Positions 3,707 through 39,840 of a DNA stretch of 40,040 nt are shown here, in pieces. The notes under the pieces are model-generated. The model had not been told where the DNA came from and made no database searches. It saw nothing but the letters and a program-made list of their open reading frames with translations. Origin of the DNA: Bacteroides sp. (lineage in GTDB: Bacteria > Bacteroidota > Bacteroidia > Bacteroidales > Muribaculaceae); NCBI GenBank assembly GCA_014801235.1, contig JAAVEM010000017.1:16963-57002 (forward strand), written 5' to 3'. The position numbers and the translations under genes were made by a program. Position 1 is the first letter of the stretch. Every line of letters starts with the position of its first letter.

Positions 3707-3744
3707 AAATTTGTGTGTGTGGGAGTTCAGGAGTGATTTAGGGG

Positions 3745-3845
3745 GCGCTCTTTGCAGAGCGCGTGCCCTGAGTGAACCGTTAACCGGGCAGAGCGAGCGT
3801 TCGCTCACTCTACCCGGCTATCCGTAGGGCAAGCCTTTCAGGCTT
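3745..3845. repeat. Hairpin cassette ABC, copy 1
   Basis: A 3745-3762 GCGCTCTTTGCAGAGCGC; B 3784-3817 ccgggcagagcgagcgttcgctcactctacccgg; C 3831-3845 AAGCCTTTCAGGCTT. Gaps 21 and 13 nt. Confidence 0.85.
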
Positions 3846-3865
3846 GTCCCCATGGTGTGCGTGGG

Positions 3866-3965
3866 AAAACATCGGAGATGTTTTGTATGAGAAACCCCAT
3901 GTAAAAACGCCGTTTTTACATGGGGAGTAGCAGGTTTATCCAACTTGCCATCCTCGGAGAGGATG
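3866..3965. repeat. Hairpin cassette DEF, copy 1
   Basis: D 3866-3884 AAAACATC-GGA-GATGTTTT; E 3895-3925 CCCCATGTAAAAACG-C-CGTTTTTACATGGGG; F 3949-3965 CATCCTC-GGA-GAGGATG. Confidence 0.85.
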
Positions 3966-4008
3966 AATTTACATATATAAATATATGTGTGGAGGGGAAG
4001 GCAGCGGA

Positions 4009-18234: not shown

Positions 18235-18283
18235 AAAAAAAAATAATGTGCCGGAGCAATGCTCCGGCACATTATTTTTTTTT
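18235..18283. terminator. Bidirectional intrinsic terminator
   Basis: Poly-A, AATAATGTGCCGGAGC-AAT-GCTCCGGCACATTATT, poly-T, between convergent genes. Confidence 0.9.
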
Positions 18284-39134: not shown

Positions 39135-39143
39135 ATGTTTATT

Positions 39144-39246
39144 CAACATCTCCGATGTTGTCGACGGTTGAGTTGTTATTGACCCTATGTTGTTGACGCA
39201 CGCGTCAACAACATAGGGTTTCGCATATTATAGCTCTCCGAGCTAT
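39144..39246. repeat. Hairpin cassette DEF, copy 2 (inverted)
   Basis: F' 39144-39160 CAACATC-TCC-GATGTTG; E' 39183-39218 CCCTATGTTGTTGACG-CACG-CGTCAACAACATAGGG; D' 39230-39246 ATAGCTC-TCC-GAGCTAT. Confidence 0.8.
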
Positions 39247-39354: not shown

Positions 39355-39387
39355 ACTATAGTGAACCATTGCGAGTTCCAACACAAG

Positions 39388-39489
39388 CAACGTCGGAGAC
39401 GTTGAAATGTGTGAAACCCCATGTTGGCGCGTTAGACGCCAACATGGGGCGAGGGACTATATTGGTTTTTGCCATCCTCGGAGAGGATG
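39388..39489. repeat. Hairpin cassette DEF, copy 3
   Basis: D 39388-39404 CAACGTC-GGA-GACGTTG; E 39417-39449 CCCCATGTTGGCG-CGTTAGA-CGCCAACATGGGG; F 39473-39489 CATCCTC-GGA-GAGGATG. Confidence 0.85.
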
Positions 39490-39571
39490 AATAAAAATAT
39501 CCCACAAAAAATGAATGCATACGTAGGTATTCCCGCCAACGCATCCCCCGAGATGGACGCATTCGCAAACC

Positions 39572-39671
39572 AAGCCTGTAAAGGCTTGCCTTATGGGTAG
39601 CCGGGTACGGCGAATGAAGTGAGCCGTGCCCGGAAACACGCACAACAATCAATCGCACTCTGAAAGAGTGC
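39572..39671. repeat. Hairpin cassette ABC, copy 2 (inverted)
   Basis: C' 39572-39587 AAGCCTGTAAAGGCTT; B' 39601-39633 CCGGGTACGGC...GCCGTGCCCGG; A' 39655-39671 GCACTCTGAAAGAGTGC. Gaps 13 and 21. Confidence 0.85.
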
Positions 39672-39716
39672 CCCCTAAGACACTCTTGCGATTTGTCAGC
39701 CATTTTGATTCAGGGG

Positions 39717-39817
39717 GCACTCTTTGCAGAGTGCCAATCCATCACAAACCCATAACCGGGCAGAGTTCGCATCCGCTCACTCTACCCGGCTATCCGTAGG
39801 GCAAGCCTTTCAGGCTT
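39717..39817. repeat. Hairpin cassette ABC, copy 3
   Basis: A 39717-39734 GCACTCTTTGCAGAGTGC; B 39756-39789 CCGGG...CCCGG; C 39803-39817 AAGCCTTTCAGGCTT. Gaps 21 and 13. Confidence 0.88.
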
Positions 39818-39840
39818 GTTTCGCAAACCAAATTCCCAAA

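Follow-up and report, generated by a model that had tools for sequence, protein, structure and literature searches.

Inverted three-hairpin modules in a Muribaculaceae genome as probable ends of a Y1 transposon lacking its transposase gene

The window (i.e. the whole 40,040-nt stretch of Bacteroides sp. DNA analysed here) contains an inverted pair of three-hairpin modules. These are probably the two ends of a single-strand-acting HUH-Y1 transposon minus its transposase gene, which would make the pair a non-autonomous mobile repeat. Repeats of this sort belong to an already known kind, the Y1-associated palindromic repeats. What is new is that Y1 genes of subclass 1.2, filed so far as end-less, mostly have inverted repeats in the host's family. 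These often form tripartite hairpins whose long member carries an NTAR tag at its foot.

Anatomy, fold and copies of the element

Six hairpins occupy positions 39571-39818 of the window in the order C'B'A'-spacer-ABC, mirror-symmetric about 39694.5, with an exact 12-mer on each side. The inverted ABC pair centred at ∼39694.5 and the 12-mer at both positions had been recognised in the initial annotation and are confirmed; the element measures 248 bp rather than the 246 bp given there, and C' shares 3 nt with the left 12-mer, where the annotation had counted 2 nt. On the plus strand, the left half consists of a short hairpin C' (39571-39588; CAAGCCTGTAAAGGCTTG), a GTAG tag at the foot of the long hairpin (39597-39600; identified from the sequence, alignment A2 and the tag statistics), the long hairpin B' that it precedes (39601-39633; CCGGGTACGGC...GCCGTGCCCGG) and a short hairpin A' plus tail (39655-39678, of which 39655-39671 is the hairpin; GCACTCTGAAAGAGTGC, tail CCCCCTAA). 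A non-coding spacer of ∼30 nt follows (39679-39709), at the position where a copy in the congener G004 has a Y1 gene. The inverted half, on the minus strand, consists of the short hairpin A with its tail (39710-39734, hairpin 39717-39734), the long hairpin B (39756-39789), an ATAG tag (39790-39793) and the short hairpin C (39802-39818). The long inverted arms of the element span 28 nt (89%), and the inner stems of B and B' differ on both sides while both still pair.

Folded as single-stranded DNA, the whole element reaches -72.7 kcal/mol, compared to -35.6 +/- 3.8 kcal/mol for dinucleotide shuffles (z -9.8; 0/200 shuffles equally stable), and the single halves folded separately give z values of -6.4 and -4.8. 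An iterated profile search collected 90 distinct full modules. RNAalifold, applied to 27 varied modules (alignment A2), recovered exactly hairpins C, B and A. In this alignment, 96.6% of the pairing cells are paired, compared to 86.9% when shuffled and 25-44% when slid, and 12/24 base pairs carry two-sided changes; this covariation supports all three hairpins. The conserved unpaired part of the module is the tag at the foot of B, which reads GTAG, ATAG or ATAA among the family copies.

The element belongs to a dispersed family. In the host genome (G000, a 59% complete MAG in 50 contigs), the window pair has 51 BLAST matches at ∼23 distinct places, some complete as pairs, some reduced to solo halves and some truncated where a contig ends; one solo ABC half lies in the window itself (3734-3847, minus strand). 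The other copies share about 73-95% identity with the window copy, and these values give no sign of very recent movement. A close relative of the host (G006, 65% complete) has a similar set of copies and the congeners G004 and G008 contain divergent copies of the module family, while a search of ten other congeners found no family copies at the thresholds used. ORFs of 200 or more codons occupy 62% of the loci, yet 100/104 module hits fall outside them, and 28/37 neighbouring module pairs within 100 nt are oriented C'B'A'->ABC. The family thus fits the description of MITEs in the general sense, i.e. short, non-coding units with inverted ends and dispersed copies of uniform size.

Strong, intergenic hairpins that are symmetrical on both strands would also be expected of non-mobile structured RNA repeats (e.g. 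terminators or mRNA 3' stabilisers) whose sole means of spreading would be duplication and recombination. We consider this explanation highly improbable because it accounts neither for the fixed-size pairs nor for the presence of such inverted modules on both sides of Y1 genes throughout the host's family (see below), and Rfam matched nothing in the window except the tRNA.

Two further observations concern the copies. The ends of host contigs C16, C35, C44, C47 and C42 fall inside the element, so that the repeat family fragments the assembly and may hide a Y1-bearing copy. Two loci of G004 (L147 in contig C45 and L148 in contig C30) contain head-to-tail module runs with ∼30 nt spacing, unlike the usual inverted pairs.

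Y1 genes between the modules and the ends of subclass 1.2

A Y1_Tnp (PF01797) gene is present in nine of thirteen congeners. The initial annotation had named Y1/RAYT-type transposases as a place to look: this proved right for the congener G004, and no PF01797 Y1 gene was found in the host or in G006, whose assemblies are 59% and 65% complete. The G004 gene (C11:245807-246148, locus L061) is flanked by C'B'A' and ABC modules of the family, with arms of 130 nt that are 92% complementary. The parts are arranged and ordered as in the window element, except that the gene replaces the spacer. The same genome contains nine gene-less pairs of 209-216 bp, compared to one Y1-bearing unit of 722 bp. An autonomous relative with the same ends is thus present at one locus for this module family; G008 has modules of the family as well, and its one detected Y1 gene (L044) has different ends. 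Since the G004 gene lies between the same modules, beside gene-less versions, the window element is most likely a non-autonomous, Y1-mobilised, REPIN/MITE-like unit, its transposition being deduced from sequence comparison. The earlier reading as a MITE-like, non-autonomous element is upheld by this locus and by the dispersed, fixed-size inverted pairs that lack an ORF. As a side observation, the right side of the G004 unit adjoins a tandem array of ∼47-bp units (L061 1970-2397), and a matching inverted stretch occurs on its left.

The L061 protein is an intact HUH-Y1 transposase of 148 aa (DHVH, Y113 and Q117), and is related to the TnpA proteins of IS608 and ISDra2. The Y1 proteins pass the NCBIfam IS200 model (61-78 bits, cut-off 55) and score 26-36 bits with the NCBIfam RAYT model (cut-off 80), which did not match the fourth protein; L061 Y1 falls far below the RAYT cut-off. 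Y...Q..HH, which defines Y1 subclass 1.2 (Quentin et al. 2018, PMC6006769), is present in L061 Y1 and in the majority of the genus's Y1 proteins that were found. This motif and the sub-cut-off RAYT score place the associated Y1 outside RAYT (TnpAREP, class 2). Based on Y...Q..HH, a length of ∼148 aa and the HUH motif, 82/86 proteins fit subclass 1.2.

Subclass 1.2 has been described as generally without typical terminal secondary structures, REPs or IS properties (PMC6006769). This description fails in the host's family (judged by its relatives, a family of Bacteroidales, probably Muribaculaceae), where such a Y1 gene is present in 98/197 genomes: among the better-scoring matches, which were examined instead of a random draw, 68/85 Y1 genes with enough flank have inverted repeats on both sides whose score exceeds the 99th percentile obtained with mispaired flanks. 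The distance between repeat and gene is typically about 20-100 nt on the ATG side and 0-60 nt on the stop-codon side, and many arms fold short-long-short. Tripartite hairpins are found in 36/83 upstream and 39/81 downstream flanks, compared to 3/820 shuffles and to 1/76 when other ORFs were taken; a stricter first detector, relaxed under the same controls, had given 7/83 and 9/82, compared to 0/825 shuffles. NTAR lies at most 2 nt from the foot of the long hairpin in 72/122 cases, compared to 13.5% at random positions, and the core (i.e. short hairpin, NTAR and hairpin) occurs on the expected strand in 29/84 and 36/84 cases, compared to 6/84 and 5/84 on the opposite strand.

Among genomes sampled across the class, mostly from other orders, 123/247 have a Y1 gene. 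Long inverted repeats were found at only 5/29 loci of these other orders, and we rejected them as a class-wide rule; the hairpin-NTAR-hairpin core is still enriched there (10/30 and 8/30, compared to 6/300 shuffles). Because the core alone is enriched outside it, the strong statement is limited to the host's family and the wider pattern serves as a lead. We tentatively suggest, with confidence a little short of even, that Bacteroidia contain a third kind of Y1-repeat system, in which each subclass 1.2 gene would have its own tripartite NTAR-tagged ends, and gene-less six-hairpin derivatives, still mobile in trans, would account for a large part of the intergenic repeats in such genomes.

Proposed mechanism and relation to known systems

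By analogy with the known chemistry of HUH-Y1 proteins (IS608, ISDra2 and TnpAREP; PMC2806898, PMC8266576), movement may proceed as follows: (i) the DNA would become single-stranded during replication or repair; (ii) a subclass 1.2 Y1 protein, supplied in trans, would bind the tagged long hairpin, with the two short hairpins serving as further contacts; (iii) its tyrosine would cut beside the tagged long hairpin; and (iv) the unit would be transferred to another single-stranded site. The weak points of this proposal are that the cognate pairing of gene and modules occurs at one locus, that the incomplete host genome has yielded no Y1 gene and that no orthologous junction could be read.

The closest counterparts are REPINs/BIMEs with RAYT (TnpAREP) and REPtrons, which are likewise inverted pairs of tagged palindromes, intergenic and dispersed, and in which the same palindromes flank the Y1 gene and a GTAG-like tag stands at the hairpin foot (PMC8266576, PMC3116915). 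The window element is an inverted pair of tagged palindromes, as a REPIN is. However, its ends comprise three hairpins over ∼110 nt instead of one of 20-50 nt, its tag is NTAR rather than GTAG, and the associated Y1 is an IS200-like subclass 1.2 protein (Y...Q..HH) rather than a RAYT.

This likeness raises the alternative of a domesticated REPtron, in which the Y1 protein would no longer transpose and the modules would be kept for a host function (e.g. at mRNA ends or in DNA topology), with Y1-dependent cutting, followed or accompanied by recombination and gene conversion, as the means of copying them, as proposed for TnpAREP/REP. The few Y1 copies per genome, the NTAR/GTAG-like tag, the intergenic placement of the modules and the mosaic composites with a second module family (see below) all agree with it. 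A mobile unit, however, explains the fixed length of the pairs and the existence of a bounded, Y1-bearing unit with their layout no less well, and we regard domestication as rather unlikely. The mobile, non-autonomous unit, which we prefer, also resembles other systems. It shares HUH-Y1 chemistry, subterminal hairpins and protein similarity with the IS200/IS605 elements (IS608, ISDra2) and their non-autonomous derivatives. The ends of IS200/IS605 elements are single hairpins on the same strand, without long inverted repeats. Their left end carries a target motif (PMC2806898). The Y1 genes themselves agree with subclass 1.2 as described in Y...Q..HH, length (about 148 aa), occurrence in Bacteroidetes and low copy number, and differ from that description (PMC6006769) in that most of them in one Bacteroidales family have inverted, often tripartite ends and that gene-less derivatives exist. 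TIRtrons/TIRYT (Di Nocera et al. 2013) also have long inverted repeats around a Y1 gene, some with self-complementary tracts and dispersed family members; the tripartite tagged layout and a link to subclass 1.2 or Bacteroidales are absent from the available parts of that account (PMC3733652). The BrickBuilt MITE of Porphyromonas gingivalis is MITE-like and from Bacteroidales as well, and as far as the accessible text of its description goes, it has a minisatellite core and a three-hairpin inverted pair is not part of it (PMC4596501). No earlier description was found in the open-access literature on REPIN/RAYT, Bacteroidales REPs and Muribaculaceae palindromes.

Subclass 1.2 Y1 genes are widespread in the class and have so far been filed as without ends and IS behaviour. 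The inverted, tagged three-hairpin ends and their gene-less derivatives are candidate DNA substrates for these proteins, whose activity is directly testable, and they offer an origin for hairpin repeats that break gut Bacteroidales assemblies.

Flanking repeats, insertion sites and a second repeat family

A second tripartite family, composed of a short CGGAG-type hairpin, a GCGAAACCCC-tagged long hairpin and a CATCCTCGGAGAGGATG hairpin, is present in the window at 39384-39492, 39143-39224 and 3866-3968, and has matches at about ten places in the host genome. The module at 39384-39492 lies directly left of the element, and the same order is found in several other composites.

The 12-mer TTCGCAAACCAA is exact at 39562-39573 and 39820-39831 (both plus strand) and has no further occurrence in the window at up to one mismatch. 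The initial annotation had compared it to a target-site duplication. As a property of the family this does not hold: a long flanking repeat is present in 1/14 complete pairs (i.e. the window copy only), and the direct repeats of the 13 other complete copies reach at most 7 exact or 9/12 bases, as in mispaired flanks. Copies without flanking duplications were one of the outcomes that the initial annotation had named as contradicting its reading. Both 12-mers, moreover, match repeat-family flanks. The left one is a common flank of the neighbouring second family and lies within the sequence following it (CACCCATTCGCAAACCAA in C23, shortened in C25). The right one is similar to TYCCGCAAMCCMAATTTCC, the right-hand flank of several members of the first family. 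We therefore rejected the 12-mer as a family-wide signature of target-site duplication. IS200/IS605-type Y1 transposases are not known to produce target-site duplications.

A single 12-mer occurs at a third exact site in the host genome (C23:34443) and at C11:45185 in G006. At both places a second-family module lies upstream, and the 12-mer is preceded by CACCCA/AACCCA and followed by TTTCCC. In these regions (G000:C23:34308-34460, L272; G006:C11:45070-45220, L273), the second-family module is followed by one TTCGCAAACCAATTTCCC without a first-family element. This looks like a related (paralogous) empty-like site, or like a deletion between two repeats. Since the single 12-mer stands between similar flanks, the window copy or an ancestor of it may have undergone a duplication, which nevertheless does not characterise the movement of the family. 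Together with the exact repeat at both ends, this locus is what a classical DDE-type MITE, mobilised by an unseen IS transposase with 12-bp target-site duplication, would have in its favour. Such an origin is very doubtful, because 0/13 other complete copies have a direct repeat above background, the ends are tagged hairpins and the gene between the same ends encodes a Y1 rather than a DDE transposase.

We compared insertion sites among relatives. For the window locus, an orthologous site in congeners was sought by means of its upstream gene and of tRNA-Pro; the matches covered only the tRNA and a short region upstream of it, or a gene fragment, and yielded no usable empty site. G006, which is 65% complete, lacks the locus. 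Five other copies were examined for empty sites, and synteny often breaks within ∼100 nt of the copy. One of them is the half-element at C2:36653, where the orthologous intergenic region of G008 is 83 nt long, compared to 338 nt, and lacks the element, but its DNA has diverged too far for the junction to be read. A clean orthologous empty site with resolved junctions was found for none of the copies compared. Next to the C25 copy, G006 differs by 2.7 kb, and this stretch contains a BspA-like leucine-rich-repeat gene rather than a Y1 gene.

Three minor features deserve mention. A BspA-like leucine-rich-repeat gene lies beside an element in G006 (contig C14; L220 1318-3141) and is absent there in the host. 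The solo half-element at G000:C2:36595-36830 (L022 2095-2330) has a direct repeat of ∼55 bp on either side, which includes a short hairpin of the second family. Elsewhere in the window, a perfect inverted repeat of 24 bp that ends in A and T tracts (18235-18283) is likely a bidirectional terminator.
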